DNA from: Planctomycetota bacterium
GTDB lineage: Bacteria; Planctomycetota; Planctomycetia; Pirellulales; UBA1268
DNA: 64,000 nt
Reading direction: 5' to 3'
NCBI GenBank assembly: GCA_003669585.1
Contig: QWOQ01000007.1
Location: forward strand, 418,694-482,693
Under the pieces are notes generated by a model that worked only from the letters and a program-made list of their open reading frames with translations, ran no database searches and had not been told where the DNA came from. Made by a program: the position numbers and the translations under genes. Positions 31,355 through 63,077 of this stretch are shown here, one piece after another; within the stretch, counting starts at the first letter, position 1, and every line of letters begins with the position of its first letter.

Positions 31355-31368
31355 TACGGAGACGAACG

Positions 31369-32535: not shown

Positions 32536-32540
32536 CGCTC

Positions 32541-34694: not shown

Positions 34695-35310
<616 letters not shown>

Positions 35311-35320
35311 GGAATTCACT

Positions 35321-37111: not shown

Positions 37112-37338
37112 ATGGCGGAGCATGGGATCATTGGCAAATCGGTTTTCATCACATTGTCGTCGCGAGCGGCGATGTGGCGATCAAAACACGGGAGCCGCTC
37201 GCATGGCCGTAAACCATTTCTGTAAAAAGCTTTATGAGTCTTGCATTGGGCCTACCACAGCATTTAGTAGGAACATACTGCGGGCTGCTCGCAAAAGACG
37301 ATTTAGCCCCTTACGCTCGTTGAAGTTACATAGATACT
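37112..37338 (+). promoter_or_regulatory. Putative CRISPR leader
   Basis: 227 bp between cas4-cas1 and the first repeat. A weak promoter (TTGCAT, 18-nt spacer, TAGTAG) lies near 37243-37272. The repeat's 3' end ATTGAAGC on the plus strand and the position after the cas genes favour plus-strand transcription, making this the leader end. Confidence 0.55.
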
Positions 37339-40071: not shown

Positions 40072-40140
40072 GCTGCGGCAGCGTCAGGCTTCAGCATCCG
40101 CCTCGCCATCCATGCCTACGCTACTGCTACTGTACCGACT
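40072..40140 (-). repeat. Dispersed gene-tail repeat, copy A
   Basis: Related to 42768-42848 and 61296-61355. It covers the last SUMF1 codons and the following untranslated sequence containing GAGGCGGATGC and AAGCCTGACG. Here it directly adjoins leader copy A. Confidence 0.7.
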
Positions 40141-40506
40141 GACTGCGGGCCACACGGAAACCCAGGCCGTCGGGGCGTAGCCGTGGTAGCGGAACGCCGA
40201 CCGACCGCCGCTAGGGCGACTCCTCCAGCCGCCGCCGCGATTCACGCGGGTCGCCTCGAACATCCCCTGCGGTATTGCGACCGGCCCCACTGGATCGACA
40301 CCGCCTGAAAGTTTTTTATCGTACCAATCCGAGCACCACTCAGCCACGTTGCCGTGCATGTCGTGCAAGCCCCACGGGTTGGGCTTCTTCATGCCGACCT
40401 TGTGGGCGTATTCCTCGCCGAGTGCGTTGCCGTCGAACCACGCGTACTCGCCCAGCTTTAATTCATCCTCTCCGAATGAAAGGCCGTTGTCGTTCCTGCA
40501 CGGCAC
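40084..40506 (-). pseudogene. SUMF1-domain C-terminal fragment with frameshifts
   Basis: Contains LSFGEDELKLGEYAWFDGN, HKVGMKKPNPWGLHDMHGNVAEWCSDW and RVNRGGGWRSRPSGGRSAF, the C-terminal half of a SUMF1/FGE-type domain like the second domain at 61356-63077. The upstream ACRAGTTTAF segment is present only in another frame, and the expected end GLGFRVARSQSVQ is also in a shifted frame. So at least two frameshifts are present and no start or N-terminal half exists. With the neighbouring N-terminal fragment it is a remnant of tandem SUMF1 genes. Confidence 0.82.
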
Positions 40507-45946: not shown

Positions 45947-45967
45947 ATTTGGGGTTGTTGGGGCTGG

Positions 45968-46040
45968 AGAAGCAGATTTGGAGCTTCGAAAAATTGGTGG
46001 ATCAATTTGGAATTCGAACACAAATATCAACAGGGTGGCG
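45968..46040. repeat. Short dispersed repeat also at 58527-58597
   Basis: The plus-strand segments around GAGCTTCGAAAAATTGGTGG (45981-46000) and GAGCCTTGAAAAATTGGTGG (58552-58571) belong to a ~70-bp similar block. Its function is unknown. Confidence 0.6.
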
Positions 46041-46164: not shown

Positions 46165-47562
46165 CTAAGGCAAACGGAACGGACCGGAAAAAAACACGTG
46201 ACAAGACCTGCCGCGGCTATCCCGCATGTCTACTTTTAGTGTATGGCTTCCACTTGGAGACAGCGGCGCAGGGGAAGCATTGGCGGACGAAAGCATCCAG
46301 CGGTTTTCACGGTTATCGAAATGCAAAGACCACGAGACGCCCACTGAGAAAGGGGCAGGAATCGAGGCTGCCGCATCGCTGGAAAAGCTGAGGCGAGAAT
46401 CCCTTCGCAGCGAGATAAGGAGTAATCTTCCTGAATCATTGTCGATGGATTCCTCAATTTCTGTCTCGGCAATCAGCAGGAAGCCATCTGCTCGCGGTCG
46501 CCCGGTGTCGTCTAACAGATGACCCGCCAGAGAGCTACCCGGAGGGGCTATTGCCAGCATTCCATCCTTTTTCTGCCAAGCGGATCTTGATTCTGCCAGT
46601 TCCTGCGCCCTTCGCACCAGAGCGATTGACTCGGCCGCGCCTAGGACGAGGGTGTGCACGTCGGGAGCGTCGCCACGCATTGAACATATCTCAGGGGCTA
46701 TCGGCACAGCGGAGGCTTCAGATGGCTTCGGCACGGGAAGCCGTACCGTCAATGAGTCGGCCCCCTCGACGATTATGTGATCCGGGAATTCGGGGCCGAC
46801 GAATTCGAGTAACAGACGGCCTCGTAGGGAAAAGTCCCAGAGTTGCCGCTTTTCGTTGGATGGAGAGGTGTCACCGCCTGCGATATCGTTGGTAGAACGC
46901 ATGCGATAACTGCCTTTTGGGACAACCAAGAAGCATGGTCCATAAAAACCACATCCAGCTGCAGCTCTCACCATGCCAAGCGCATCCCGTTCAGTGTCGC
47001 GGCCGATCAAAGTCGCCCCGGGAGCGATCTCCCTCCAACGAGCCTGATCTGTTGTTCCGTGCTCAGGAGCCAGACCCAGCATTAGCATCCGTTCGGGAAT
47101 ACGCACAGGATCAACATCGTTAAGCTTGCCGTCCGTGACGACAACTGCGAAAAGTCGAGAGGTTTCAGGTGCCACGGACGACAAGAAATTATTCAGAACC
47201 GGCGACAGAAAGCTGCCAGCAGCCCGTTCGTTGGTGATTACTGCCGCGTTAAATAGGGTCTCGCCGAGATCGACCACGCCGTCGACGACATCGCCGACGG
47301 TAATGGTTCCCCAGCGTGAGGTGGCGGCAGTGGCAGCGTTGCCGAATCCCATGACCTTTAGACCCCAGGTTCGCGGTAGCGGCGACAGAAGCCGCGGCAG
47401 CCGGGTGACATCAGCCTGGGTCAACTGCGAGGAATCCGATAGATCGACGACCAGCAACACCATCCCGGATTGGCGAATTTCGACCGCTATTTCGACAACA
47501 ACGCAAGCGATGCCCTTCGCATCAATGCGATGCCGAACAGTCACCGTCGGCAAGTCATTCAC
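46165..47562 (-). CDS. vWA-like protein, last gene of the GTPase-associated operon
   Basis: A 465-residue protein. An N-terminal von Willebrand A-type Rossmann fold is suggested by MVLLVVDLSDSSQLTQADV (MIDAS-like DxSxS near residue 40), TRLPRLLSPLP, GDVVDGVVDLGETLFNAAVI and LFAVVVTDGKLNDVD. A beta-rich C-terminal half follows with no recognised family. vWA domains serve as metal-dependent protein scaffolds. GTG at 47562 overlaps the radical SAM stop (GTGA), so the two are translationally coupled. Its role may be to bind a modified or GTPase-presented partner; that is inference from context. Confidence 0.75.
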   Translation of the reverse strand: MNDLPTVTVRHRIDAKGIACVVVEIAVEIRQSGMVLLVVDLSDSSQLTQADVTRLPRLLSPLPRTWGLKVMGFGNAATAATSRWGTITVGDVVDGVVDLGETLFNAAVITNERAAGSFLSPVLNNFLSSVAPETSRLFAVVVTDGKLNDVDPVRIPERMLMLGLAPEHGTTDQARWREIAPGATLIGRDTERDALGMVRAAAGCGFYGPCFLVVPKGSYRMRSTNDIAGGDTSPSNEKRQLWDFSLRGRLLLEFVGPEFPDHIIVEGADSLTVRLPVPKPSEASAVPIAPEICSMRGDAPDVHTLVLGAAESIALVRRAQELAESRSAWQKKDGMLAIAPPGSSLAGHLLDDTGRPRADGFLLIAETEIEESIDNDSGRLLLISLRRDSRLSFSSDAAASIPAPFSVGVSWSLHFDNRENRWMLSSANASPAPLSPSGSHTLKVDMRDSRGRSCHVFFSGPFRLP

Positions 47563-48260
47563 TTTGTCTCGCCTCCTGCTCTTGGCACCACTACGAGTCC
47601 GCGTCGTTCAAGTTCCACAAGCCATCGGTTGAAAAACCCGCCATCAGGGCAGCCGGTCAGTCTCATGTGAGTACCGTCTGAAGACACCTGAATCTCTTGG
47701 AGAGCCGGCAGTTCTGCGGCGGCGGCGAGCAAGTCGCGGCCACGTGTGGAAAGTGGCACCAAGCCCTGATTTGCCGAGCCCCGCCAACGCCCCGGGTTCT
47801 CAAGGTCTTCACGATACTCCCCGTCGATCAAGATATCAGTTTCTGCGAGAAGAAGGCGCATTCCCTCGTGCCCATTGTTTACCATTTCGCGGTGTCGGTA
47901 GCCCGTATAAATGACGATGTTGCGACCAATGGCCCGTAGGCGTGCCGCAAGTCTTGCCAATGCGAGCGGTTGCTCGAAAGGCTCGCCGCCGGAGAAGGTC
48001 ACGCCGTCTACGCCGGCTAGTAATGCTAGCCGCTGGTAGACCTCATCGACAGATATTTTTCGGCCGGCCTCGAATGAAAAAAGGTCTGGTTTTAGGCAGC
48101 CCGGACAGCGGCGGTGGCAGCCCGAAACCCAAACCACCGATCGGGTGCCCGGGCCAGCGACGTACGAACGCTCCTCTATCGCGCCGACAACCAGTGTCTC
48201 GGTGTCTGTGGACGGCGCTGGCCGTGTCCCTCGGGGCATGAACGTCTCGTCAAGGTTCAT
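47559..48260 (-). CDS. Radical SAM activating-enzyme-like protein (NrdG/PflA-like)
   Basis: A 233-residue radical SAM protein. The 4Fe-4S motif CxxxCxxC is in VSGCHRRCPGCLKPDLF at C48/C52/C55, followed by GVTFSGGEPFEQPLALARLA (SAM-binding GGE) and IGRNIVIYTGY. This is the short single-domain form of glycyl-radical activases such as NrdG. No glycyl-radical enzyme is in the window, so its substrate may be an operon protein. ATG at 48260 is chosen because it forms an ATGA overlap with the AAA+ gene stop; a GTG four codons earlier is also in frame. Confidence 0.85.
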   Translation of the reverse strand: MNLDETFMPRGTRPAPSTDTETLVVGAIEERSYVAGPGTRSVVWVSGCHRRCPGCLKPDLFSFEAGRKISVDEVYQRLALLAGVDGVTFSGGEPFEQPLALARLAARLRAIGRNIVIYTGYRHREMVNNGHEGMRLLLAETDILIDGEYREDLENPGRWRGSANQGLVPLSTRGRDLLAAAAELPALQEIQVSSDGTHMRLTGCPDGGFFNRWLVELERRGLVVVPRAGGETK

Positions 48261-50275
48261 GGGTCGATCCACTCGTACCGCAGCAGGCTCCGATCGAAAG
48301 TCACTCCACCGATGTCGCCATCCGCGGCCTCATAATCGACCCGCATCACCCGTCCGCGGCAACGATCCGGCTCCATGAACAAGTCGGACGCAAGCCGATT
48401 GAGAACGAAGCGGTTGAGAAGATTGCGGACGCCTCGAGCGCCGTTGCGGTCAAAGCCGCTCGGATGAGCCATGAGCAACTGCTTGAAGGATGCAGTGCAG
48501 TGCATGTCGACGGGATGCCGCTCGCGGAGGCTGCGACGCATGTTCTCGATCTGTTGGTCGATGATCTGGGACTTCGCGTCACCCGCGGTCAGGAATCGGA
48601 ACACGAGGATGTTGTCCTCACCGATTCGATTCAGGATCTCTGGCCGGCCCAGCGTATTCACGAAGAAGTTTCGCACAGCTGCACGAAAATGTGCGGTAAG
48701 CCCTTCGTAAGGTAGTTCAGCAAGGCTGGCGTAGGCTTCGTCGGTATTCGCTGGCGGCAAGCCTGGTGGCGTTGCTTGGGCTCCGCTGTGGGCGCTCGGC
48801 CGCTGCGCAGGCGGAGCAGTGCCTATGTTTGACGTGAAGATGATGATCGACTCGCTGAAGTAAACCGTCTTGCCCATGCCATCCGTGAGTCGGCCGTCAT
48901 CAAGAATCTGCAGGAACTTGTCGAGGATACGGCCGTGCGCCTTTTCGATTTCATCGAACAGCACAACGCTGAAGGGCTTTTGCTGGATTGCGTTGGTGAG
49001 CTGTCCACCCTGGTCGAAGCCCACATAGCCCGGAGGAGCGCCGATGAGCCTCGCCTGCTGGTGCTCCTCTGAGTATTCGCTCATATCAAACCGCAGGAGT
49101 GCGGCCTCGTCACCAAACACGAGTTCGGCGACGGCCTTGCTGAGCTCTGTCTTGCCCACCCCGGTCGGCCCAACGAAAAAGAATGCACCACGCGGTTTGG
49201 ACGAGTGAACGCTGCCTGCGAGGTCGCTCAGGCCGAGCTTTGCACGGATGAGGACTGGGACGACTTCGTCAATCACCTCATCCTGACCTTTGACCCGCCT
49301 AGCGAGAACTTGCTTGGCGTTGCGAAGTCGCTCCGGATCCATTTTGGCCCAGGCGTTCTCCCGCGTGCCGAACTTAAACCTCGTCAGAAGTTGCGGGAAC
49401 TGCTTCGCGGAAAGCCCGAGGTGTTCGCGGCGGCTCAGCACTGCCAAACTGAAAAGATCCTGCATTCGGAGCCCCTCCGAGAGCTGCCCCAAGAGTGCGC
49501 ATTGCGACGCATCGGTGGCAAGATCCAAGCGCGGCTCGCCACCGGCGTCAAAGCTGGCCGCGAAGTGCCGGAAGAATTCCGATCGCTCCTCTGCGCCGGG
49601 AGGCCCAATGTGAACGGAGCGGGCTGACGGAAAGAGGGAGTTGAGCTCTTGGGGGATTTGGCTTTCGATGTCAAAAACAAGCAGCATCCGGGACGGCGTT
49701 GCACCATTTTGGCCGAGCAACGGAATGGACATGGCGGCCTTCTGCAGGAGCAGTGACAGCTGGCGGTCGGCGGAATCCTGGCGATCAGTGTATGCAAGGT
49801 ATCGGTCGGCGAATCGAAAGATCACCGCGCAACGAACGTCCTGCCGCGGCAGGACGTTCGCGAGCAATGTGCCGGTGAAGTCTGACGGCGATTGTTGAAC
49901 ATCCATCGGGACGAGCCAGTCTTCCAGTGGCGTTGCCTGTGGCGGGGATGCTACCGGAGTACGAGCGGTCTGCGGCGGTGAAGCGGACCGCGGTCCGCCG
50001 GCCATGAGGTCGTGCAGTGTTGCGAGCATCGGTCTACGCAGCACCACGATTCCGCCAGGATTGTCGTAGAGACAGACGATGTCGTAGCCCTGCCGCTCAA
50101 GCTCGAGCGCCAGCCAAAGATCGAATGTTACCGTTCTCTGATCGCTCCACTCCGCCGGCAGACGGCTTCGGATCGGTTCGTCGATCGTGTAGATGTCCTT
50201 GACATTGCCGTGGAGCAGCACGAGCGGATCCATGAGCAGCGCATCGGCCAGGTTTGATTTCCACATTGCGGTCAT
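48257..50275 (-). CDS. ClpB-like AAA+ ATPase with a distinct N-terminal region
   Basis: A 672-residue protein. Residues ~1-330 are an unrecognised region with proline-rich linkers and a P-loop-less Rossmann-like segment (RMLLVFDIESQIPQELNSLF). From ~350 comes one Clp/HSP100-type AAA+ module: KGQDEVIDEVVPVLIRAKLGL, Walker A FVGPTGVGKTELSKAVAE near 370, MSEYSEEHQQARLIGAPPGYVGFDQGG, Walker B VVLFDEIEKAH near 438, DGRLTDGMGKTVYFS sensor region, and a C-terminal small domain. ClpB normally has two modules; only the D2-like one is present. Start ATG 50275, 4 bp after the preceding stop, AAGGGG upstream. Confidence 0.85.
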   Translation of the reverse strand: MTAMWKSNLADALLMDPLVLLHGNVKDIYTIDEPIRSRLPAEWSDQRTVTFDLWLALELERQGYDIVCLYDNPGGIVVLRRPMLATLHDLMAGGPRSASPPQTARTPVASPPQATPLEDWLVPMDVQQSPSDFTGTLLANVLPRQDVRCAVIFRFADRYLAYTDRQDSADRQLSLLLQKAAMSIPLLGQNGATPSRMLLVFDIESQIPQELNSLFPSARSVHIGPPGAEERSEFFRHFAASFDAGGEPRLDLATDASQCALLGQLSEGLRMQDLFSLAVLSRREHLGLSAKQFPQLLTRFKFGTRENAWAKMDPERLRNAKQVLARRVKGQDEVIDEVVPVLIRAKLGLSDLAGSVHSSKPRGAFFFVGPTGVGKTELSKAVAELVFGDEAALLRFDMSEYSEEHQQARLIGAPPGYVGFDQGGQLTNAIQQKPFSVVLFDEIEKAHGRILDKFLQILDDGRLTDGMGKTVYFSESIIIFTSNIGTAPPAQRPSAHSGAQATPPGLPPANTDEAYASLAELPYEGLTAHFRAAVRNFFVNTLGRPEILNRIGEDNILVFRFLTAGDAKSQIIDQQIENMRRSLRERHPVDMHCTASFKQLLMAHPSGFDRNGARGVRNLLNRFVLNRLASDLFMEPDRCRGRVMRVDYEAADGDIGGVTFDRSLLRYEWIDP

Positions 50276-50279
50276 CTGA

Positions 50280-51101
50280 TTAGCCCCCTTCGGAACGGGA
50301 ACGCGGCAGTTCCTTGCGGCCTGCTTGGCGGAGTATTGGCCGATCGGCGAGGTCACGCCTTTCTGGTCGACATTCCATGCCACGCTTCCCCATTTGCGCG
50401 ACGTAATCAAGAAACGAGCCGACGCACCGTTCATCGGTCTGGCCTGCCCAGCGAGACTGCACAGCACCGTCTCCGAGTGGCAGCGAGACTGTGACCTCCT
50501 CAGCGCCTTTCTTGGCCACAATCGTGACGGGTTTTGTGACGTCCGTCGTGTCACCGGGGTTCACGATGTCAGTGAAGAAACCGGTCGCATGGAATGAGTC
50601 AATGATCGCCTGCTGCACATGTCGCCGCCGCTCGATTTTCTCCAATATATCAAGGGCATCCGCGACCAGCGATTCACCCTCGGTATAGGTGTCGTGGGCC
50701 TCTCGTAAAGCTTCCGGGCTCGCTGGCAGGTCGGCAATCCGCAAGCAGCGATCAGACCAAATAGCATAGCGGTCTGCGCAGGCCGCGGTCAGGCGAGTGT
50801 CTTCGACCAACGCGATTCGACGTGCCTCGACAGCATCACGGATTTCGATGAACTCAGTAGCGACGCGAGTCGACTCTTCCGAGGTCTTCGAATCGACCTC
50901 AACCAAGGGCGATGATTCAACCGCCGCCTGCTCGGGAACGATATTTTCGACCGGGGCTCGAGGGGCCGGCCGCCGCCGTGGCGTCTGTCTCGCCGCTTGC
51001 ACTCGTGCAGCGAACACTGCCTGCTGCTCATCACGCTGTTTGGCAAATACTGCGAGCTGAAGGGGCGAGAAATCGATCGTAAAGTCCTTAGGGCCGCTCA
51101 T
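50280..51101 (-). CDS. Unknown helical protein of the GTPase operon
   Basis: A 273-residue protein, not recognised. N-terminal FTIDFSPLQLAVFAKQRDEQQAVFAARVQAARQT (helical) is followed by a proline/arginine-rich linker and a long predicted coiled coil (EFIEIRDAVEARRIALVEDTRL ... ALDILEKIERRRHVQQAIIDSF). A small C-terminal domain then contains VTKPVTIVAKKGAEEVTVSLPLGDG. It may be an adaptor linking the AAA+ ATPase to the other components. It ends 4 bp before the AAA+ gene and lies 68 bp after the preceding gene. Confidence 0.65.
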   Translation of the reverse strand: MSGPKDFTIDFSPLQLAVFAKQRDEQQAVFAARVQAARQTPRRRPAPRAPVENIVPEQAAVESSPLVEVDSKTSEESTRVATEFIEIRDAVEARRIALVEDTRLTAACADRYAIWSDRCLRIADLPASPEALREAHDTYTEGESLVADALDILEKIERRRHVQQAIIDSFHATGFFTDIVNPGDTTDVTKPVTIVAKKGAEEVTVSLPLGDGAVQSRWAGQTDERCVGSFLDYVAQMGKRGMECRPERRDLADRPILRQAGRKELPRSRSEGG

Positions 51102-51169
51102 AAATCATTTCACTTTCGTTGGTTTCCGCAGAACGCTCGTCCTTGTAGGGGGCGGCAGTAGGGTAATCA

Positions 51170-51601
51170 TCACAAGTCATCGTCACCACCGCCGAGCTGT
51201 CGCTCCAGATTGTCTGCCCACCTGCCGACCTCTTGTATGTCTTGCCAAAGTCTCGATGCTAATCCCTCGTCATAGATGTCGATCGGCACGCAAGCGACCG
51301 CATCGACGGCCGGCGGATCACAATCCATACTCAAACAAAGCCCGTACCTCTGCCTACCCGCATTGAATTCGAGCAGCTTCCGGACTAGGGTGTGGTTATC
51401 GGCGAATCCCACTCGCGACACCAATCGAGCCACGATCATTCCATTGCTGTCGCCCGGGACCCTTGCAGCGGTGAGCTTTACTGTCTGTCGGCGCCCCTTT
51501 GCTACGGGCAGGTTTACAAGGATGCCGGTTGGGCTTGCTTCAACATTTATGCCCTTTATTGATCTGATTACGTGCCCCAAGCGTTGAATAATAGTCCCCA
51601 T
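51170..51601 (-). CDS. YbjN/CesT-like fold protein, tentative
   Basis: A 143-residue mixed alpha/beta protein. VNLPVAKGRRQTVKLTA, then NHTLVRKLLEFNAGRQRYGLCLSMD and VACVPIDIYDEGLASRLWQDIQEVGRWADNLERQL resemble, in pattern only, the YbjN/type III chaperone-like fold (a helix, a beta sheet, then a closing helix). If so, it may be a chaperone for another operon protein. It lies 9 bp after the zinc-finger protein gene. No firm family assignment. Confidence 0.55.
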   Translation of the reverse strand: MGTIIQRLGHVIRSIKGINVEASPTGILVNLPVAKGRRQTVKLTAARVPGDSNGMIVARLVSRVGFADNHTLVRKLLEFNAGRQRYGLCLSMDCDPPAVDAVACVPIDIYDEGLASRLWQDIQEVGRWADNLERQLGGGDDDL

Positions 51602-51610
51602 AAGTTGGTG

Positions 51611-53254
51611 CTAGCCTTTGATTGTGGATAGAGCATGTGGCCGTGCCACATTGAGTAAATAGGCAAGCACGCCCTTGTATGTATCGGCATCGATGTCGCT
51701 GTAAAGCCTCACGTCAACGAGTTTGAATTTGAGGGCGCCGGTAGAGGCGTCTACCGTCAGCGCGAGACGACCGAGGGAGAAGTTTTTATTCATCTGCAGG
51801 GCGGCGACGAATTTCTCCCGAAAGGCGGGGCCTATAGTCGATGCGAAAATAACGATCAGACTGCCCTTCGCCTCGTCGGGAGTAAATTCGATCGTCGCTA
51901 TAGGATCGCCGTCAGACAGTACCTCGTATCCGATATCCAGAACACTCAACCTTAATCCCGCCTTTTGAATAGCATCGGCGACGGTGGTGTCGGTATCGAG
52001 CATGTGTATCTGGCCGCCGGACGTCTTCAGTCTTTTTTTGAAATTCTTCGATAATCCATTGTCCTCGACCAGGCCGATCGTTTGCAGGATTCCGCGAAAC
52101 CCACGCTGGAACCATGCGGTCGAAGTGCTGCACCGTTCGAGCAGTACTCCGGGAGCAATGCGATTGTCGAGGCCAGCAATGTAGACAGAGGCCTCGCTAC
52201 CGCCCCCATCGAGCTTGTATCCCACTCGGTGTACATAGCAGCTTCTTATCTGAAATCTTAGGGCTCTTGCTGTCTGGGCCTTCTTGCTATCGGCACTGCC
52301 TTGCGACAGGGCTGCATTCAGCGTGGAGTGGAGCCGCCTCGCAACATTGGGAGCAATCTCGGGGCTGTACTGTTCCGCGCTTAAAGCTGCTGGTTTTCCC
52401 GAAGTCGTAATAGTGAGTGGAAGATCCTCGGCCCAGATCTGCGACATGCTTTCCGACAGACCTGCAATATCGAGATTCCATTCTTCAGACGCAATAACGT
52501 ACGACTCAGTGAGCGTTGACACTTCGGAGATCAGGGCGTGAAAGTGGCAAATCTTGGCGTAGCCACCACAGGGCCCACAGGTAGTGAACCCTTCGCCGTT
52601 GCACCCAGAGCAGCGGATTTGGCCGTCTGGGCCGCAGCTCGGGCAGCTCCGGGTACCTCTCGATAGGCACGTCGGGCAGTTAGCGGTAACACCGTTCGGA
52701 AATCTCGTAAGTCCAACGCCGTTGCAGGTCCCGCATCGCAACAGTTTCGTGCCGCCACAATCGCCGCATGCAACGCGGCCCGTCTCTCCGCAGGCTTGGC
52801 ATGCGTTATGCCCCGTTGCTCCGCATCGTGTGCAATCTTGTATCGTTTCGCCTCCCGGGAGGCGATGGGTATTGGACGCGGATTCCTCTGGAAAGGCGAT
52901 GTTTTCGATGGGCACCATGCTTAAAGGTGAGCCCGACGGCAGAGGTCGCGTGTCAGCAGTCGAATTGCTGGCCGGCTCCTCTCTCTTCTCAACCCGTCGA
53001 TTTATAAATTGCGTGTGAACGGTGACGAGGGACACCACCTGCCGCGCCCCCGACGTGACGGAAAACTTTCCTTCGAGCCGCCCGATTGGAATCTCTGAGT
53101 GCGAGTCTGCCCAGAGTCGCACAACGTTGCCGTAGGAGTCGAGCACCAATTGCTCGCTCGAGCCTTGGACCGGGTTGTCGAGTTGGTCAGGCGTTATCTC
53201 AGGCTGAAGGAGCCCAATGCGCGGAAGCTTGAAGGAAGGATCCCAGTTGGACAT
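51611..53254 (-). CDS. Protein with DnaJ-type zinc-finger repeats, no J domain
   Basis: A 547-residue protein. Residues ~135-240 carry a long series of CxxCxGxG-type elements (CTRCGATG, CQACGETG, CGDCGGT, CGTCNGVG, CPTCLSRG, CPSCGPDG, CSGCNGEG, CGPCGG), twice the number in DnaJ itself, and no J domain. N- and C-terminal parts are unrecognised; the C-terminal ~270 residues look alpha/beta. DnaJ cysteine-rich domains bind zinc and unfolded protein. Here it accompanies a ClpB-like ATPase, an inferred chaperone-like partnership. 13 bp separate it from the membrane GTPase-associated gene. Confidence 0.8.
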   Translation of the reverse strand: MSNWDPSFKLPRIGLLQPEITPDQLDNPVQGSSEQLVLDSYGNVVRLWADSHSEIPIGRLEGKFSVTSGARQVVSLVTVHTQFINRRVEKREEPASNSTADTRPLPSGSPLSMVPIENIAFPEESASNTHRLPGGETIQDCTRCGATGHNACQACGETGRVACGDCGGTKLLRCGTCNGVGLTRFPNGVTANCPTCLSRGTRSCPSCGPDGQIRCSGCNGEGFTTCGPCGGYAKICHFHALISEVSTLTESYVIASEEWNLDIAGLSESMSQIWAEDLPLTITTSGKPAALSAEQYSPEIAPNVARRLHSTLNAALSQGSADSKKAQTARALRFQIRSCYVHRVGYKLDGGGSEASVYIAGLDNRIAPGVLLERCSTSTAWFQRGFRGILQTIGLVEDNGLSKNFKKRLKTSGGQIHMLDTDTTVADAIQKAGLRLSVLDIGYEVLSDGDPIATIEFTPDEAKGSLIVIFASTIGPAFREKFVAALQMNKNFSLGRLALTVDASTGALKFKLVDVRLYSDIDADTYKGVLAYLLNVARPHALSTIKG

Positions 53255-53267
53255 GAGGGACTCTCGT

Positions 53268-55166
53268 CTATTTGCCGGCGGGAGCTATGTTATTGATGAG
53301 AACAGAGGCTGCCGATGCCAGCAGCATCAGGATCGTTGGCAGGTACCAGGCGAACTTCTGGCCCATAAAACGCTGGAGGGAAACGACAGAAATCTGCGTC
53401 GCCAGCCTATTGAAAACGCACAAGATGATCGTGAGCAGCCCCAATACACCCGGCACCCAGAGCCGCGTCCGGGCTTGGCTTATTGCCTGTCTAAGGGCTC
53501 CAACCTTTACCTTGGTAGTTTTCGTTGTTTTGCCTTTGTTAGCGACCCCAACACTATTCGTGGGCTGGCCGGCATCGGTGGCTAGGGATTGCCACGGTTT
53601 GTACTCGCGCAACACTGGCAAACCCACGCCGATAAAGGCAAGAAGCAATGATGAAAATACAGTGATCCGCCAAATCCACGCAAAACCGATCGACGAAGGA
53701 GCTTCGTTGAGAGTATTGCGGCGGTTATTAGAGCCCAAAAAATCACCGTCGGGCCACGTTAGGGTTCCGGCTTTACGATTAGGTCGGGGTTTGGGCCTTG
53801 GCATCATCACGCCCGCAGTGCCTTGGCCCATCGGATCTGATGCAACGGTGTGGGGCTCAGCCTTGGGTGGAGCAAGAAGATGGAGGAATTGCTGGTCGGC
53901 GTCTGCTGCCGGAGTCCGCGACGCAACGGCGATCGCATCCTCTCCAGCCTCCCGAATTGCAGCGGCGAGCGTTTTCGAAATTTCCCCGCCACTCCCGCCC
54001 AAGTTCTCGATTCCCACCTTCGTCGCGCAAGTCTGGAGAGACTCGTGGATTTCGAGAAGTTTTCCGAGCCTCGCGGTGCCGTTCGGCAGACTGGCCGCGT
54101 CCTTAACGATGTCCAGCGACTTCGAACAAAGCGAGGTGGAGATCGTCTCAATGGCTAGCTTCTCTAGCGAATTATGGTCGAGCACTGCCCCGGCCTTCCG
54201 AACGATCTCTATGAAGGCCTCAACGCTGTCCAAGTCGGAAGTAGTCTCGATCCGCTGCAGGGAATTACTGATCTCCGCAACGTAGCCGAAGTGTTCCGGC
54301 CGTGCATGCAACCGGTCGCACAGCCCTGCAAAACGTCCCGGACTATTGGAAATGAGGTCGGCGTATGTCGCTCTCGCAAAGGGGCTGGCAGGCTCCGTAT
54401 TTCCATCGCTCGCGAGGCTCTGGGCATCGATTATGAGAGGCTTACGTTCGCCTGAACGTGACATTATCGCGGCATAAAATGGTGACCCGCGATACGTGGC
54501 GAGAATCGATGCCTCCGGCAATCGGTCGTCGATGTCGATAACGTGGGTCGCAGCCACCCAGGACGAAAGCATTCCTCGGGGCAGAACGTCACCAATAGCG
54601 GCAATGATCTCGAGAACGGCTTTGCCCGCAATCTGCTTGGAGTCGGAGGTGGATTGCACTAGAACGACGGGCCTCTTTGTTTCCTGATAGCGGACAACAG
54701 TTTCAGCGGCGGCAGAGACAGCCTTCGCTAGCGAAGGACTCGCCGCGGCAGGAGGGGGCGGCGGATCCAGCCGTGGCTGCGGCTCGATCCAGCCGACAAC
54801 TGCCTGCCTCGGATCGGCGGCGTGAGCGGCGGCGCTACGCACTAAGTCACCGCACGATATGGAAGACTCGAGGGGCAAGAGTAAATGGCGGGCAAACGGG
54901 ATGCGTCGACCAGTGTGATCCGTACCCATCTCGATGCGTGAAAACTCAATTCGGCCGCACAGCATCCCAACGATGTATCGCGATTGGGTCGCCGCCGGCG
55001 CATAAGCCGTGTAGTCCCGATGTCGCTCGAGCTTTCGGGCCGCGTCCGCAGGAAAGCTGCGGGTGCTCGCTATGACACCTAGATCTGTGGCGCCCGGCAG
55101 GAGGAGTCTCGGTGCGGAGCCGTAGACAAGCTCATGAGCTTCGACACCGACAGGTCGGCTAGGCAT
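53268..55166 (-). CDS. GAP1-like GTPase-associated protein with C-terminal membrane anchor
   Basis: A 632-residue protein. The N-terminus (HELVYGSAPRLLLPGATDLGVIASTRSFP) resembles the N-terminal domain of GTPase-associated protein 1 (GAP1-N2 family) as I recall it. The middle is helical. Three hydrophobic segments follow near residues 510 (ITVFSSLLLAFIGVGLPVL), 575 (VPGVLGLLTIILCVFNRLA) and 615 (FAWYLPTILMLLASAASVLI), so the C-terminus is membrane-anchored. Its stop-proximal neighbour upstream is the GTPase gene, with an 8-bp overlap (55159-55166). Such pairs form the core of predicted GTPase-centred conflict systems. Family assignment by eye only. Confidence 0.7.
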   Translation of the reverse strand: MPSRPVGVEAHELVYGSAPRLLLPGATDLGVIASTRSFPADAARKLERHRDYTAYAPAATQSRYIVGMLCGRIEFSRIEMGTDHTGRRIPFARHLLLPLESSISCGDLVRSAAAHAADPRQAVVGWIEPQPRLDPPPPPAAASPSLAKAVSAAAETVVRYQETKRPVVLVQSTSDSKQIAGKAVLEIIAAIGDVLPRGMLSSWVAATHVIDIDDRLPEASILATYRGSPFYAAIMSRSGERKPLIIDAQSLASDGNTEPASPFARATYADLISNSPGRFAGLCDRLHARPEHFGYVAEISNSLQRIETTSDLDSVEAFIEIVRKAGAVLDHNSLEKLAIETISTSLCSKSLDIVKDAASLPNGTARLGKLLEIHESLQTCATKVGIENLGGSGGEISKTLAAAIREAGEDAIAVASRTPAADADQQFLHLLAPPKAEPHTVASDPMGQGTAGVMMPRPKPRPNRKAGTLTWPDGDFLGSNNRRNTLNEAPSSIGFAWIWRITVFSSLLLAFIGVGLPVLREYKPWQSLATDAGQPTNSVGVANKGKTTKTTKVKVGALRQAISQARTRLWVPGVLGLLTIILCVFNRLATQISVVSLQRFMGQKFAWYLPTILMLLASAASVLINNIAPAGK

Positions 55167-56754
55167 TCCAAAGGCCCCCCTTACGCTTTTTCGTCGCTTC
55201 AGGGTTGTCGAGTGTCAGCCCCGGTTTTCTCGGCAGAGGTTTTGGCGCTTCGCTCGTCGTCCCTATCGATGCCCCGGCCACCGGGGCATCGGACGCGTTC
55301 TTCGGTCGCTCCACATTGGGTATATGGCAGGAAGTGCCCGAACCCGGATCGACGACATTAGTGCCACAATACCCCCAGTCGACTGTGATCCGCTGCCCAG
55401 AGTCAGGGAATTGCAAGGTGAGGCGATCCGGAGTCTTGGCGACGACTGCAAGCGGCGATCCATGCCGCTTGTTCGATACTGCTGAGAAGACGAACTTCCA
55501 CCGGTACAGTAGCCAAAGCAATGGATCCGTCACACGAATCGGATTGATATCGCCGCGTCGCACCTGCAACTGGTCCGATCCATCAGGGGCCTTGCCTAGC
55601 TTTGGGCCTGTGCCGAGGGCACTGACAGGAAAATATCGAACAACGGAGAAACTCTGCTCTGCGACTTGCACGAACTGAGGTGCAATGTCCTGGAGGAGTT
55701 GCCGTACGAGGAGCGAATTGTGGTTAATCTCCTCGAGATGTAGTGCCGCGATGCCATGTTTCCCGAGCCACTCGATCGAAGTGTCGTCGATCGTGGCCCA
55801 GGAAGGAAGGAGCGAACGCCAAGCATCAAATTTCTGCACACACACAGCGAGCGGAATGTCTATGCGATCGCGGGAGGCAAGTCCGCGAAATGCACGAATC
55901 TGGTCGATGACGTTGACCAGCGTCTCAGTTTGTTCGCAGTCCTTGGTTATCTCGCTGATCTGCGGGTCGGATGACCCCGCGAGACGTTCGCGAACTGCTG
56001 CGTCCTGCAGAATGTCGAAGACAAAGATGACGCCGCTAGAGTGCGCGAGATGCCTTGTGGTCTGGTTTGATGCTTGACGGTGGTAATTATTTTCTGGATC
56101 AAAGGTCTCGCCGGCGTTGTCGTAAAATACGAAGTTGGCGTCGGCAACGCTCTTTCCAGCCAAGACGCGGGGGTGGTCGGGGGTCGGCACAAGCCGAAAT
56201 ATGAACGGCTTGGGGAGTAGTACGTCCATGCTATCAAGCGTGACGGCCGAAGTGTTGTGGCCTTCTCGCGTCTTTTCGAGGAAGGTGTTTTCGTCGCGTG
56301 ATCCCCGAAAGAGAGTCTTTTCAAGCCTCTGCAGGGATCTCGCCTCTGGGTTATCGCAGTAGGACAGCGTGAACTTGAATTGCTTGGCCATCTGCAGGCC
56401 CAGTTGGTGGAGCATCGCCGTGAGAAAGTAGGTCTTTCCAGAAAACGGCGCGCCACCGAGCGAGAAGAAGAATGGCCGCCGCTCCAGCAGTTCATGCGGA
56501 ATTTGCAGGTGGCACCGCGGGCAGGCGCGGTCGGTCATTTCCAACCCGTTTGGGTCACGAACGATCCCTTTGCGGTCCGGAGAAACTTCGTGGGGGCCAA
56601 ATCGTTTGTGGGCTTCCGGATCCTTGATGACTGGATCGCCGCGTAACAGGTCATGCTTAGACACGTACAAGGCGTCATCGTCGTGAAATTCGTACCAGCA
56701 GTGTGGGCAGACGACCTCACGGTGCGTGAGTTTCGAAAAATTTCTGGCGCACAT
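55159..56754 (-). CDS. TRAFAC-class GTPase with N-terminal zinc ribbons (double-GTPase-like)
   Basis: A 531-residue protein. N-terminal zinc ribbons: C2, then CPHCWYEF at C16/C19, and ACPRCH at C78/C81. P-loop GGAPFSGKTYFLTAML is at residues 100-108. A Thr/switch region and FYDNAGETFDP (a G3-like DxxGE) lie near 215, and VQKFDAW near 330 fits a G4-like (N/T)KxD position. The zinc-ribbon-plus-GTPase form and the segment CPHCW resemble the double-GTPase 2 family. GTP hydrolysis may switch the operon's effectors. Start uncertain: ATG 56754 was chosen for a GAGG upstream and because the homologous part begins there; the frame extends to 56928. Confidence 0.82.
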   Translation of the reverse strand: MCARNFSKLTHREVVCPHCWYEFHDDDALYVSKHDLLRGDPVIKDPEAHKRFGPHEVSPDRKGIVRDPNGLEMTDRACPRCHLQIPHELLERRPFFFSLGGAPFSGKTYFLTAMLHQLGLQMAKQFKFTLSYCDNPEARSLQRLEKTLFRGSRDENTFLEKTREGHNTSAVTLDSMDVLLPKPFIFRLVPTPDHPRVLAGKSVADANFVFYDNAGETFDPENNYHRQASNQTTRHLAHSSGVIFVFDILQDAAVRERLAGSSDPQISEITKDCEQTETLVNVIDQIRAFRGLASRDRIDIPLAVCVQKFDAWRSLLPSWATIDDTSIEWLGKHGIAALHLEEINHNSLLVRQLLQDIAPQFVQVAEQSFSVVRYFPVSALGTGPKLGKAPDGSDQLQVRRGDINPIRVTDPLLWLLYRWKFVFSAVSNKRHGSPLAVVAKTPDRLTLQFPDSGQRITVDWGYCGTNVVDPGSGTSCHIPNVERPKNASDAPVAGASIGTTSEAPKPLPRKPGLTLDNPEATKKRKGGLWNA

Positions 56755-56885
56755 CTCAAATCGCCTCGCGGTCGAGTTGGGGGTTCCGTCCATAGGAAAA
56801 GGGGGGCTGTATTTCCGGAAACGTACCACACTAGAGGGTGGATGTCTATGGGACGGTTTTTGCATTCGGAGCTTTGAATTCGTAG

Positions 56886-57572
56886 CTATGAATTGGGGGC
56901 TCGCTCCCAAACGCGGCGAAATCCACATCCTGCATTCCCGCTCGACGGATCGGCTGGACGCCGGGCTGTCAGCCCTAGGGTCGGCTCAGTGGACCGATAT
57001 CCGCGGACTGTGACCTTCTGCCCGGCAAGCCACGCGCGGCCGCGGACGCCACTGTCCGCCCGCCAGTAGCGACTGGCATACCCGTCAAAACACCACTCTT
57101 GGGCTGCGGCCGAAAGTGCGGGGTTGGCACGCTGCAGGAGCCCCGCCGCCATCGCGGTCTCCCATTCGGCTTCGAAGGGGAGTCTAGCGCCAGAAAAATG
57201 GCAAACCGCTGCGGCCTCGAACCAAGTGAGGCCGAGTGCAGGCAGATCCCCACGCGGAAGTTGCCAAGAAACAGGAGCGTCGGCGAGGGTCATTTGGCGG
57301 ATTGTTTCGCAGCGATTATCGACCGATGCTGGCTGCGCGGAATCCGAAAACGGATTGCCGTCCGCCGCCCGCCACCACAACGAATCGGCATATCCACCCG
57401 AGGTGACGAACGCCTCGAACGCCCGCCACGAGAGAAGATCCTGGTCGATCCACACATCGCCAATAAACCGTCGCATATGACGAGGAGAGGCGTTTGGGGT
57501 GCTGTCGTTACCGATCCAGTAATCGCCCGCGGGCAATTTGCGAGCGATTGGCATTTCTACGGGTTGTGGCAC
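56886..57572 (-). CDS. SUMF1/FGE-domain protein, first gene of the GTPase operon
   Basis: A 228-residue protein of the SUMF1 (sulfatase-modifying-factor/EgtB-like) fold: LPAGDYWIGND at the start, LGLTWFEAAAVCHFSGARLPFEAEWETAM near residue 115 (the typical W-EAxxxC...RLPxEAEWE block) and GCGFRRVW at the end. Only a single cysteine appears in the key block; a catalytic Cys pair of true formylglycine-generating enzyme is not seen. In several conflict systems this fold acts as an inactive or binding module. GTG at 57572; ATG at 57554 is also possible. A 57-bp gap separates it from its neighbour only if the later GTPase start is correct. Confidence 0.8.
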   Translation of the reverse strand: MPQPVEMPIARKLPAGDYWIGNDSTPNASPRHMRRFIGDVWIDQDLLSWRAFEAFVTSGGYADSLWWRAADGNPFSDSAQPASVDNRCETIRQMTLADAPVSWQLPRGDLPALGLTWFEAAAVCHFSGARLPFEAEWETAMAAGLLQRANPALSAAAQEWCFDGYASRYWRADSGVRGRAWLAGQKVTVRGYRSTEPTLGLTARRPADPSSGNAGCGFRRVWERAPNS

Positions 57573-58341: not shown

Positions 58342-58763
58342 GATGTTCTCCGTTATCGTTTTGACACTAGATTCTCTCTCTGAAAGTGGTGCTGCTTAAG
58401 GGGGGGCAGGTCAGATCTAGGATCGAAGCTCAACCAATAACCAAAACGCCTAACGAAGGTCACTGCACCGAACTCGGGTGGGCCGCGTGGGTTTCCAGTT
58501 CGAGCGTCTTGGGCCGCCCGGGTCTTGTTGGGGCGGCAGATGTAGGTTTGGGAGCCTTGAAAAATTGGTGGGTCAATTTGGAAGCTGAACAAGAATCCGT
58601 ACAGTTCTGTTCAGTTTTGTAAAAATGGCCCACAATTAAGCAAACTATCAACAGGCAATCACCATACCGCTGATTACCACATTTTGAACAAAACACTGTT
58701 TCCCATTTGTCTAAGACCTCAGTTGTATTACGGCTATTGACTTAGCAGAAATCGAAAAGGTTA
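58342..58763. other. Noncoding gap with a dispersed repeat
   Basis: About 420 bp. It contains the ~70-bp block at 58527-58597 related to 45968-46040. No gene supported. Confidence 0.5.
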
Positions 58764-59689
58764 TTATTGCCGCTTGTATGAGTCCAAGAACTTTTTCTCA
58801 AAAAGTAATCCCTCAATCCGGAAAGTTTCTGAAGTCGCATCATAGTTACTTACATTTATCTTGGAATTCCTGTTTTTAAATTTTTTCAAATATAAAAGTT
58901 GGACACTAACATACCCAAGCGAGCCAATAAAAACCGAAAAGCAGAGCCCGCAGAGCGACTGAAGCCCCTTGGAGCGTACGATTACTCGTTCTAATGAAAA
59001 CAATAAAGGTGGTAAGAGTGCCCCGGCAATACACCAAGCTACGAGAAGCATATAAGCAAAGGAAAAGAATGCGATAAGTGAAAAGTATAAATATTTTTTA
59101 ATTTTCTTTGCGCGATCTATCGCGATCGATCGAGAGCATAATGTACATATCCGCAGGATATCGGGCAGTCGACGGTTCTCGTCGAAGCTATCGCGATCGA
59201 TCGAGAGCATAATGTACATATCCCATATGATATTTCACATTGTTTTTCTAAAATTTTTCCGACAACATCACCTAATAAGGGTACAAGGTCCGAGAATCCG
59301 GCGACTGGAGCATAAGTAACTATCCATGTTTGGGTCTCCGCCGGAGCAAGCTCACTTCCGCAAACAATGCAGTTCCGTAGTATGATAGGTGATTTTTCGA
59401 CAATCTGTTTGCCATCTTTTCTAAAGACAAAATGGGTCTGCTTAGGAGGTGGACTAATTGAGAGCGGGTCTTGCGGAAGCTTCAAACGGACTGATTGCTG
59501 ATGCTGCGTCTGGGCCAATACCGGAGTCAGCGGAACCACTGGTTCGACGATCGCTGCCGGTGTAACTTCAGCCGGTGCGATGGCGGGAATCAAAATTGGT
59601 TGACCGCATTTCGGGCACTTTCCTGTTTTTCCTGCCCATGTGTCTTTTGCATTTATTTTAGCACCACAGTTGCACTGCACTCTAATCAT
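58764..59689 (-). pseudogene. Zinc-ribbon membrane protein broken by a 71-bp duplication
   Basis: The N-terminal part (MIRVQCNCGAKINAKDTWAGKTGKCPKCGQP) is an MJ0042-like zinc ribbon, followed by a Pro/Ala linker, a second CIVC...CTLC cysteine pair and, in the next frame, DRAKKIKKYLYFSLIAFF with two or three membrane helices. A partial tandem duplication adds 71 bp, so the frame ends at 59117. Without it the gene would encode 284 residues. The protein would have cytoplasmic zinc ribbons and a membrane end. The downstream part could only be made by restart. Confidence 0.8.
59117..59223. repeat. Partial tandem duplication, 71-bp period
   Basis: The 36-bp segment beginning CTATCGCGATCGATCGAGAG at 59117-59152 is repeated exactly at 59188-59223. 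The 35 bp between (59153-59187) are present once. The CGATCGATCGCGAT core is itself self-complementary, which may have promoted slippage. Confidence 0.9.
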
Positions 59690-60939: not shown

Positions 60940-61098
60940 TGAAACCATTTACGAAGGGATCTACCCCCCGGTTAGAAGAGTACTCTATTCAATCGCATTT
61001 CAATTGTCAACAAAATCCAAAAACTCATGAATTTTCCAGATTCAGATTCAAATTGTCCCAAAGAATATTTGAATCAAAGCCAGAATATGGCAGCGCGC
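60940..61098 (-). repeat. Shared promoter repeat, copy 2
   Basis: About 160 bp related to 45785-45946, covering the promoter and ~85 bp upstream. It lies directly before the glutamate-receptor-like gene in the same orientation as copy 1 before the lipoprotein gene. Confidence 0.75.
60982..61010 (-). promoter_or_regulatory. Promoter of the glutamate-receptor-like gene
   Basis: TTGACA (61010-61005), 17-nt spacer, TAGAGT (60987-60982) on the minus strand; the same architecture as copy 1. Confidence 0.65.
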
Positions 61099-61355: not shown

Positions 61356-63077
61356 CTACTGTACCGACTGACTGCGGGCCACACGGAAACCCATGCCGTC
61401 GCTGCTGCCCGACGGGGCGCTGGAGCCGCGGGACGCCGACCGACAGTAGCCCGGGGAGCCCCTCCAGCCGCCGCCGCGAATCACGCGGGACGAGCCCCGA
61501 CGAGGGCCGACCGGATCGGTGCCGCCTGAAAGTTCTTCATAGTACCAATCCGAGCACCACTCCCACACGTTGCCGTGCATGTCGTGCAAGCCCCATGGGT
61601 TGGGTTTCTTCGCTCCAACCTTGTGAGCGTATTTCTTGCTGCCTGTATTACCGGTGAACCACGCATACTCACCCAGCTGCTTTTCATCATCGCCAAATGA
61701 AAACGCCGTTGTTGTTCCTGCACGACACGCATACTCCCACTGAGCTTGTGTCGGGAGACGATACTCTTCGTCTGCTTTCAGTATTCCAGCATTGCGTTCA
61801 GTCGCTGTCAGCTTCTTACAAAACTCTATCGCATCGTCACAGTTCACATACGTTGCAGGGTTGTCCTCAACAATGTCAACACCGCCTGAATACGGCGCCT
61901 TGCCCATCACCTTCTTAAACTCACCTTGAGTCACTTCGTATTTGCCAAGCTCGAATGGCTTCGTCAGCGTTACAGCAACACCCGCGCCATCGCCCATCAT
62001 GAACGTCCCTGCTGGTATTTTAATCAGTTCCATACCAATTGAATTGGTGACACTCTCAACTGATTCTTTTTCAACCGGTTCGGGTTTCTTCATCTCCGGT
62101 CGCGTCTCTATGGCAACCGGCGGGGCGGGCTTCGCCTGCGTCCCTTGCCGACAGCGGGCCACACGGAAACCCTGATCGTTGTCGAGGTCGGTTCCCCCGA
62201 TGATGTTGCCGTGGCGGTGTGCCGACCGACATTGGTCTGAATAGTTCTCCCAGCCGCCGCCGCGATACACGTGATTCGCCCCCCTGTCGGGCCCAAGCGG
62301 ATCTGTGCCACCTGGAAGTTTTCTATCGTCCCAATCAGAGCACCATTCCCACACGTTGCCGTGCATGTCGTGCAAGCCCCAGAGGTTGGGCTTCTTCAAA
62401 CCAACCTTGTGAGCGTATTGCTCGCGGCTATCCTTGGCGTTGGTGGCAAACCACGCGTACTCGCCCAACTTTGATTCATCGTTTCCAAATGAAAACGCTG
62501 TCTTTGTTCCTGCGCGACACGCATACTCCCACTGAGCTTGTGTCGGCAAGCAGTGCGTTTCGTCTGCGTTCAGTGTTCCAGCATTGCGTTCAATCCTTGT
62601 CAATAGTTTGCAGAACAATGTCGCCTTATCCCAGGTCACATACGTTGCAGCGTTATCCTCACCTATCTGAACGTTTTTATAGTGAAAAAAGACTTTATTT
62701 TCAAATATTTCTCCCGCATCATTAATTGTGCCCGATTCACCACTTCTGTCCAACCACGGCTCCGTACCCATCACGCTCTTCCACTGCCCTTGAGTCACTT
62801 CGTATTTGCCAAGTCCGAATGACTGCGTCAGCGTCACGGAAACTTGGGACTCTTGGTATTCGACACGACCCGTCTCGCCTTTAGGGCTACCCATTGTGAA
62901 CTTTCCTGCTGGGATCTCAATAAACTCCATCCCAATCGAATTGGTGTTGCTCGGGAGTTTCACTGGTACTAAGCGGCGAGAGAAAGCGTCAACTTCTTTT
63001 TTTATTTTTTGTATTTCTTTTTGAGAACAACCCGCCATACAAAACAACATCGCAGCAACGACAACAGCGACTCGCAT
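61356..63077 (-). CDS. Lipoprotein with two SUMF1 domains
   Basis: A 573-residue protein with a lipobox (MLFCMAGCSQ near residue 16) and two tandem SUMF1 domains (about residues 45-315 and 345-572). Each has NSIGMEFIEIPAGKFTMG / NSIGMELIKIPAGTFMMG, LGKYEVTQG, CLPTQAQWEYACRAGT(K/T)TAFSFG and WGLHDMHGNVWEWCSDW, and each ends GFRVARC or GFRVARSQSVQ. The C-terminal Cys pair of true formylglycine-generating enzyme is missing (only QCRSA / YCRSA), so catalysis is unlikely and binding or structure more so. It lies between leader repeat C and tail repeat C. Two truncated relatives occur at 39763-40506. Confidence 0.88.
   Translation of the reverse strand: MRVAVVVAAMLFCMAGCSQKEIQKIKKEVDAFSRRLVPVKLPSNTNSIGMEFIEIPAGKFTMGSPKGETGRVEYQESQVSVTLTQSFGLGKYEVTQGQWKSVMGTEPWLDRSGESGTINDAGEIFENKVFFHYKNVQIGEDNAATYVTWDKATLFCKLLTRIERNAGTLNADETHCLPTQAQWEYACRAGTKTAFSFGNDESKLGEYAWFATNAKDSREQYAHKVGLKKPNLWGLHDMHGNVWEWCSDWDDRKLPGGTDPLGPDRGANHVYRGGGWENYSDQCRSAHRHGNIIGGTDLDNDQGFRVARCRQGTQAKPAPPVAIETRPEMKKPEPVEKESVESVTNSIGMELIKIPAGTFMMGDGAGVAVTLTKPFELGKYEVTQGEFKKVMGKAPYSGGVDIVEDNPATYVNCDDAIEFCKKLTATERNAGILKADEEYRLPTQAQWEYACRAGTTTAFSFGDDEKQLGEYAWFTGNTGSKKYAHKVGAKKPNPWGLHDMHGNVWEWCSDWYYEELSGGTDPVGPRRGSSRVIRGGGWRGSPGYCRSASRGSSAPSGSSDGMGFRVARSQSVQ

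Follow-up and report, generated by a model that had tools for sequence, protein, structure and literature searches.

A nine-gene operon in the genome of a Planctomycetota bacterium (assembly GCA_003669585.1, hereafter G000) may well be a single transferable, predicted conflict island made of two modules, which together would form a GTP-gated, membrane-tethered, unfold-and-modify system. We give this reading a probability of about one half. The operon lies at positions 46165-57572 of a 64,000-nt stretch of contig QWOQ01000007.1 (the window) and comprises nine open reading frames (ORFs), all on the minus strand. In transcription order, the junctions measured −43, −8, +13, +9, +68, +4, −16, and −4 bp, with the start of gene 7 (AAA+) set to the ATG at 50275, which matches the start of its homologue in G490, a genome from another family of the same order. 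A preliminary description of this DNA had listed nine same-strand genes with short gaps or overlaps, and all nine ORFs were found, with spacings from −43 to +68 bp.

We ran a profile of the N-terminal domain of the AAA+ protein over 396 genomes of the order and examined 22 stretches around strong hits. In G490 (locus L172), nine homologues were present in identical order on one strand, with identities to G000 of 40, 42.5, 27.5, 25.7, 32, 31.6, 53.5, 42.4, and 22.8% for genes 1 to 9. The same order in such a distant genome shows that the nine genes are one unit, and the expectation that the order would be conserved in other genomes was thus borne out in one. The front module (zinc-ribbon GTPase, GAP1-N2-type protein, DnaJ-type zinc protein, and small protein) and the back module (adaptor, AAA+ protein, and radical S-adenosylmethionine [SAM] protein) also occur apart. 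The preliminary description had counted scattered homologues against a unit; the order was kept in G490, and scattering was seen at the level of the modules. That each module is found without the other is also what two unrelated systems lying side by side by chance would produce. We give this next to no credence: the nine-gene order and its short or overlapping junctions recur in G490, which refutes it as a chance event, and a GTPase gene lies close to the AAA+ gene in three separate AAA+ lineages.

In G000, the G+C content of the operon was 0.581 against 0.486 and 0.490 in its flanks, whereas the nine-gene operon of G490 had 0.574 in surroundings of 0.636. The operon is therefore above background in one genome and below it in the other, with near-equal values for the two operons, which fits transfer of the whole island. 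This contrast with the flanks in both genomes suggests, at the level of sequence composition, that the operon is a transferred island. The features of the window are listed in Table 1.

Table 1. Features of the window, with the evidence on which each assignment is based (positions in the window; lengths in amino acids).
Feature	Positions	Strand	Length	Evidence
Gene 1, FGE-sulfatase/C-type-lectin-fold protein	56886..57572	-	228	Pfam FGE-sulfatase 5e-14
Gene 2, zinc-ribbon TRAFAC-type GTPase, DO-GTPase-like	55159..56928	-	589	DO-GTPase1 6.8e-5 and motifs
Gene 3, GAP1-N2-type GTPase-associated protein	53268..55166	-	632	hhalign and G490 homologue
Gene 4, DnaJ-type zinc-finger protein without J domain hit	51611..53254	-	547	8 CxxC motifs
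Gene 5, small alpha/beta protein	51170..51601	-	143	kept beside gene 4 in L172 and L206
Gene 6, adaptor of AAA+/radical SAM module	50280..51101	-	273	hhalign 94.8%, E 5e-8
Gene 7, single-module ClpB-D2-like AAA+ with family-specific N-terminal domain	48257..50275	-	672	AAA_2 1e-47
Gene 8, NrdG/PFL-activase-like minimal radical SAM protein	47559..48272	-	237	Fer4_12 2e-29
Gene 9, putative vWA-fold protein	46165..47562	-	465	DxSxS and TDG conserved in L172
Left copy, degenerate direct repeat flanking operon	45955..46025	+		81-82% over two blocks to 58525-58596
Right copy, degenerate direct repeat flanking operon	58525..58596	+		pairs with 45955-46025
Type I-G cas block (Cas3g, Cas8g, Cas7g, Cas56g, Cas1g)	25854-37111			
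CRISPR array, 20 repeats	37336-38751			

The front module opens with the GTPase (gene 2), which is preceded by gene 1, a protein whose homologue is the first gene of the G490 operon (40% identity). True formylglycine-generating enzyme (FGE) has a catalytic cysteine pair. Because the four cysteines of gene 1 include no close pair, its sequence points to a domain that probably binds rather than catalyzes. Gene 2 scored 22.7 bits against the Pfam DO-GTPase1 model, below the curated cut-off of 27. Its motifs were intact (zinc ribbons CPHC and CPRC, P-loop GAPFSGKT, DNAGE, and QKFD), and within DNAGE the D, G, and E, the last being the conserved glutamate of the Walker B region, did not vary across the 11 aligned rows. 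It was also 34-35% identical to the GTPases of L046 and L049, whose tested neighbors pass the GAP1-N2 model. Gene 3 had no direct Pfam match. A three-row profile that included it matched the GAP1 proteins of relatives (hhalign 97.5%, E 6e-12), the match extending just to the start of the GAP1 middle region. Its G490 homologue exceeded the Pfam GAP1-N2 cut-off (E 2.8e-10) with no GAP1-M match, and two GAP1 proteins tested from relatives passed the cut-offs of both GAP1-N2 and GAP1-M. The GTPase and GAP1 calls made at the outset largely survived profile searches. Hydropathy peaks at residues 498-516, 567-585, and 606-624 of gene 3 give three C-terminal hydrophobic stretches, from which the protein is probably tethered to the membrane, and the anchor first proposed for it is likely. 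Gene 4 matched no Pfam family, its DnaJ-type label being based on the CxxC motif. Its C-terminal domain has so far been found solely in this front module: 3 of the 396 genomes carried it (G000, G490, and G520), each in an operon with a zinc-ribbon GTPase. For gene 5, direct searches gave no family above cut-off, and the AlphaFold2 model (predicted local distance difference test [pLDDT] 49.7) was too poor for a structure search.

The separate existence of the front module is clearest in G520 (L206), where the GTPase, GAP1, zinc, and small protein genes follow one another as in the operon, and the stretch examined held no match to the five remaining operon genes. A genome-collection scan with the gene 2 GTPase returned nothing; whole-genome searches did find matches, in 12 of 98 relatives including the source genome. 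Several of the stretches around these matches contained a GAP1-like gene, one GTPase/GAP1 operon held a two-GYF protein, and no AAA+ or radical SAM homologue was found in them. None of 72,556 plasmid records matched the GTPase.

In the back module, the adaptor (gene 6) gave no family above cut-off in direct searches; profile comparison linked it to the ~375-aa adaptor of the canonical cassettes described below (Table 1), and a ~540-aa adaptor form from other loci was also homologous (hhalign 95.9%). A cassette adaptor homologue was predicted to fold into long helices plus a small alpha-beta4-alpha domain (pLDDT 86.8), and on this model gene 6 would be a coiled-coil adaptor with a helical part and a small C-terminal domain. 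Foldseek returned weak matches for the adaptor (best E 0.014, spermine synthase), which were not used. An adaptor cysteine was invariant in a 43-row alignment. We do not claim the adaptor Gly/Cys pair as the radical SAM target, since the consensus of the ~540-aa form lacks the pair. Gene 7 contained a single AAA_2 stretch (454-629) and matched ClpB_D2-small (1e-5), whereas bpMoxR reached just 0.06. Its Walker A (GPTGVGKT), Walker B (DE), sensor (TSN), and pore loop (GYVG) motifs were intact, which makes threading likely for a protein of this sequence. With PADLOC 2.0.0, gene 7 matched PDC-M37B (1e-29, residues 458-578), DolB (7e-19), and IetA, solely through its AAA+ core, and the adaptors tested gave no match. 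For gene 9, direct family searches named no family, and we did not take its one hydrophobic stretch (21-39) for a membrane helix. The von Willebrand factor A (vWA) partner of the preliminary description therefore stood as far as its conserved DxSxS and TDG motifs and failed in the profile and Protein Data Bank (PDB) comparisons given further on.

The radical SAM protein (gene 8) had an intact C-x3-C-x2-C cluster motif plus GGEP, and the only solved relatives found were pyruvate formate-lyase (PFL)-activating enzymes. Its match to the NrdG model (E 2e-29) could be taken to mean that it is simply an anaerobic activase of the usual NrdG/PFL type, placed in the operon by happenstance, all the more as 13 tested genomes carrying the gene 7 AAA+ family included seven with an NRDD match and three with a Gly_radical match. 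We consider this very improbable. The NrdG match reached 102 bits, under the cut-off of 126, and a radical SAM gene accompanied the AAA+ gene in 27 of 35 planctomycete loci. Furthermore, the NRDD and Gly_radical profiles found no match in G000 (95% complete) or G490 (97%), nor in G002, G519, G075, or G186 (79% complete). Because neither profile revealed a glycyl-radical enzyme in G000, gene 8 is probably no ordinary activase, and its substrate in that genome is, from these genome searches, very likely not a glycyl-radical enzyme; no such statement can be made for family f17. An NrdG-like radical SAM gene can therefore be something else where no glycyl-radical enzyme is detected.

The association of the GTPase with the AAA+ gene extends beyond G000 and G490. 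The 35 planctomycete loci consisted of 25 rows below E 1e-25 from the 396-genome scan and two further sets of 5 from additional searches; some gene calls in them were lost to contig ends and to a simple ORF caller. A DO-GTPase-type gene was present in 14 loci, a radical SAM gene in 27, an adaptor in 27, and a helicase match in 14. The 14 GTPase loci include those of the window and G490, and 12 of them are in the AAA+ tree, L195 and L196 having come later and lying outside it. In this tree, which is a quick one with no bootstrap, several long branches, and an unsure root, the GTPase-linked AAA+ proteins formed three lineages: the window with G490 (SH-aLRT 99), L076 with L174 (99), and a clade of family f17 with one further row (100), which has unlabelled rows inside. 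In the f17 clade, GTPase and GAP1-like genes come after the AAA+ gene, and the ~455-aa protein between the AAA+ protein and the GTPase had no Pfam match in either of two cases tested. In G075, ~220 kb separate the GTPase from the AAA+/radical SAM cassette.

The back cassette on its own is widespread. From a scan with the AAA+ segment over one genome per species, we kept the best 80 of 541 relatives (L077-L156), which span several bacterial phyla and archaea; the AAA+ and radical SAM genes adjoin in distant genomes. Many of these loci were cut by contig ends, the genes were scored with profiles built in this analysis, and at least seven of the 80 were stretches also obtained by other routes, two of which (L098 and L145) gave profile rows. 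A radical SAM gene was scored in 75 of the 80 loci, an adaptor in 64, a long superfamily 1 (SF1) helicase in 60, and all five genes in 38. Among these 38, the order helicase, variable protein, adaptor, AAA+, and radical SAM on one strand was kept in 36 (L079 and L080 differ). The variable protein contained a PIN_4 domain in all three cases tested (L083, L114, and L126) and a Ppx/GppA domain in L063. All seven cassette helicases tested matched MkoA of the Mokosh system (E 5e-94 to 4e-107), and the upstream PIN protein of L126 matched MkoB weakly (2e-4). The adaptor was found on 10 of 72,556 plasmid records, six of them from Moellerella and seven predicted to be conjugative; three of these records were annotated with an AAA domain protein, a PIN domain protein, a hypothetical protein, an AAA family ATPase, and a 4Fe-4S single cluster protein. 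At the DNA level, the adaptor-AAA-radical SAM stretch of L126 was at least 80% covered in none of 5426 E. coli genomes, where diverged copies could be missed and the matches listed were all to clpB. None of 140 phage records with an AAA+ match covered 80% of the AAA+ protein.

Sampled neighbors of these sister cassettes (131 proteins, five of 136 having been dropped beforehand because their genes lie between those for the helicase and the adaptor) matched 51 PADLOC families at 1e-10, against eight for 125 controls, in a test that counts families, several of which can match one protein, and whose control came from planctomycete loci only, with a narrower taxonomy and some GTPase/GAP1 loci. Enrichment of defense families around the sister cassettes is thus suggestive only. 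Six of the 131 neighbors matched the viperin (pVip) model (best E 8e-17). The helicase, variable protein, adaptor, AAA+, and radical SAM cassette is a candidate defense system in its own right, apparently unnamed.

Several cassette loci had additional content. In L157 (12910-14892), three genes come after the cassette: one for a small AAA ATPase, one for a second radical SAM protein of greater length, and one for a hypothetical protein. L167 and L168 each combine the adaptor-AAA-radical SAM triad with two vWA-like proteins and a kinase (Pkinase in L167); one vWA-like protein tested passed Pfam VWA and another had no Pfam match. L167 additionally encodes a PP2C_2 phosphatase, along with an MkoA-like helicase, and both sets recall TerY-type triads. 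A second AAA+ family of ~600 aa (L067-L075; G000:C18:336716-337426), caught by the first N-terminal profile, was set aside: it shares mainly an 'LHGNVxDL'-type N-terminal domain, and the stretches examined had no radical SAM match. In planctomycetes, this family was seen by eye near ABC-transporter/PspA-like genes.

For the nine-gene operon, we infer a possible antiphage role, a GTP switch, and covalent modification of proteins. The FGE lectin-fold protein, the vWA-like protein, or both would bind a foreign or damaged target at the membrane, where the GTPase-GAP1 pair would act as a GTP-gated threshold switch with GTP-dependent release or assembly. The zinc-finger and small proteins might then hold the client and pass it via the adaptor to the AAA+ ring, which would thread or remodel it through the GYVG pore loop. 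The exposed segment could finally be modified by the radical chemistry of gene 8, so that the client is inactivated or an effector activated. More broadly, and tentatively, the adaptor, the ClpB-like unfoldase, and the radical SAM enzyme could be a general immune unfold-and-modify core into which varied sensors and effectors are plugged: a helicase of the Mokosh type accompanied by a PIN or Ppx/GppA protein, a set of vWA, kinase, and PP2C proteins, or, here, a membrane GTP switch. If true, such a mode of immunity would be hitherto undescribed. Were the core to work in this way, the radical modification of unfolded proteins would be a further immune output, beside nucleases, NAD depletion, and pores. 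The operon links two predicted immune families through a shared adaptor/AAA+/radical SAM core, and the uncharacterized DO-GTPase/GAP1 switch would gain a definite, testable downstream machine.

The same proteins could instead make a membrane proteostasis or envelope-stress machine with no immune function, in which the GTPase/GAP1 pair senses stress and the DnaJ-type zinc protein, the small protein, and the AAA+ protein refold or extract clients. The chaperone-like make-up, the ClpB-like AAA+, and the membrane GAP1 are in keeping with this idea, and a DO-GTPase gene has been reported with some phage shock protein (PSP) stress operons (PMC11237479). However, the distribution of the operon is very patchy, its composition is that of an island, MkoA-like helicases and PIN domains are found in the sister cassettes, and pure refolding would be an odd setting for a radical SAM enzyme; the host also keeps a separate 856-aa ClpB-like open frame (G000:C18). 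We therefore hold this explanation to be unlikely, if a serious competitor. Less likely still is an enzyme-maturation cluster, in which the AAA+ and vWA-like proteins (as in MoxR/CoxE) work with the radical SAM and FGE-fold proteins to equip one dedicated enzyme with a cofactor or modification. AAA+, vWA-like, and radical SAM proteins are a familiar set in maturation, but the operon holds no metabolic enzyme, its AAA+ is ClpB-D2-like and not MoxR (bpMoxR E 0.06), and the partners vary from locus to locus while the AAA+, radical SAM, and adaptor genes recur. A radical SAM effector that modifies a peptide has been suggested for FtsH-type systems by Kaur 2020 (PMC7159879), which also speaks for maturation.

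Several observations weigh against the reading of the operon as a conflict island. Two complete nine-gene operons were found (G000 and G490), and links to defense are strongest for the sister cassettes rather than for the operon itself, whose nine proteins were matched by PADLOC just in the AAA+ core. The similarity of the cassette helicases to MkoA, scored with no SF1 control, may partly reflect their shared SF1 family. No FNIII family, usual for GAP1-N2 systems, was found among the nine proteins, and neither was a clear nuclease, pore, NADase, or other obvious toxic effector, so that the effect would come either from modifying the client or from an effector encoded elsewhere. The order of the proposed steps and the client are guesses. 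Gene 5 may possibly have a CesT/YbjN-like chaperone fold, a label for which profiles gave no support. Gene 9, compared with a vWA set that included a Pfam-positive protein, reached 2.9% in profile comparison and had no PDB match. Finally, with NRDD in seven of 13 genomes, a glycyl-radical link is excluded for some genomes only.

The CRISPR-Cas locus that the preliminary description had placed near the operon proved to be type I-G and ~7.4 kb away, with other genes between. Its G+C content (0.571) is near that of the operon (0.581) and differs from the ~0.49-0.51 around the block. Two further proteins with an FGE-sulfatase domain are encoded outside the operon, at 40084-40506 (Pfam 2e-14) and 61356-63077 (3e-80). 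Apart from the degenerate direct repeats of Table 1, a portion of the left flank is repeated at 60964-61094 (88% over 131 nt). An exact 36-bp direct repeat, with copies 71 bp apart, lies within short ORFs at 59117-59223. A ~36-bp element at 58380-58415 has at least eight further genomic copies at 86-94% identity and resembles a dispersed repeat. As regards the transposon relics of the preliminary description, the analysis yielded one 95% match of 99 bp elsewhere in the genome.

Compared with known systems, the components of the operon are partly familiar. ClpB disaggregase has two AAA+ modules, whereas gene 7 has one, and the tree sets its whole family apart from all four ClpB rows (SH-aLRT 100). 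NrdG/PFL activases share the minimal radical SAM fold and the C-x3-C-x2-C motif with gene 8 but differ from it in its recurrent AAA+ partnership and in the lack of a detected glycyl-radical enzyme in G000. The PADLOC phage-defense candidate PDC-M37B and DolB of Dodola are similar in the AAA+ core only and have no partners among the nine proteins, none of which belongs to DUF6414, the family of DolA, the Dodola partner of DolB. MoxR-vWA ternary systems offer a parallel in concept, an AAA+ chaperone that works with a vWA-like protein, and in FGE-fold domains, although the AAA+ of the operon is ClpB-D2-like, outside the MoxR clade, and its vWA is a motif call only. An MkoA-like helicase occurs in the sister cassettes of the back module (7 of 7 tested), whereas the nine operon proteins match neither MkoA nor MkoB. 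To our knowledge, Mokosh as named does not include the adaptor/AAA+/radical SAM triad.

The preliminary description had left the combination of genes unnamed. This did not hold for the GTPase-GAP1 pair, which was already described as a predicted conflict system in 2020 (Kaur 2020; PMC7159879). It held for the AAA+/radical SAM/adaptor cassette, for which we found no literature description in a search that left most subscription papers outside and is no proof of absence. The available text of Kaur 2020 reports planctomycete versions with FGS (FGE) domains and a two-GYF protein for planctomycetes; in that portion, 'radical SAM' has a single mention, which concerns a different (FtsH) system, and a coupling of the GTPase-GAP1 pair to the triad was not found (PMC7159879). 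DO-GTPase/GAP1-N2 systems resemble the operon in the zinc-ribbon GTPase with its Walker B-region glutamate, followed by a GAP1-N2 gene with a C-terminal transmembrane region. They have FNIII, GYF, tubulin, HSP70, or PP2C partners, whereas the operon has genes 4 to 8 instead (DnaJ-type zinc protein, small protein, adaptor, ClpB-D2-like AAA+, and radical SAM protein). As it lacks FNIII, we class the operon as a variant with the core pair rather than as a standard member.

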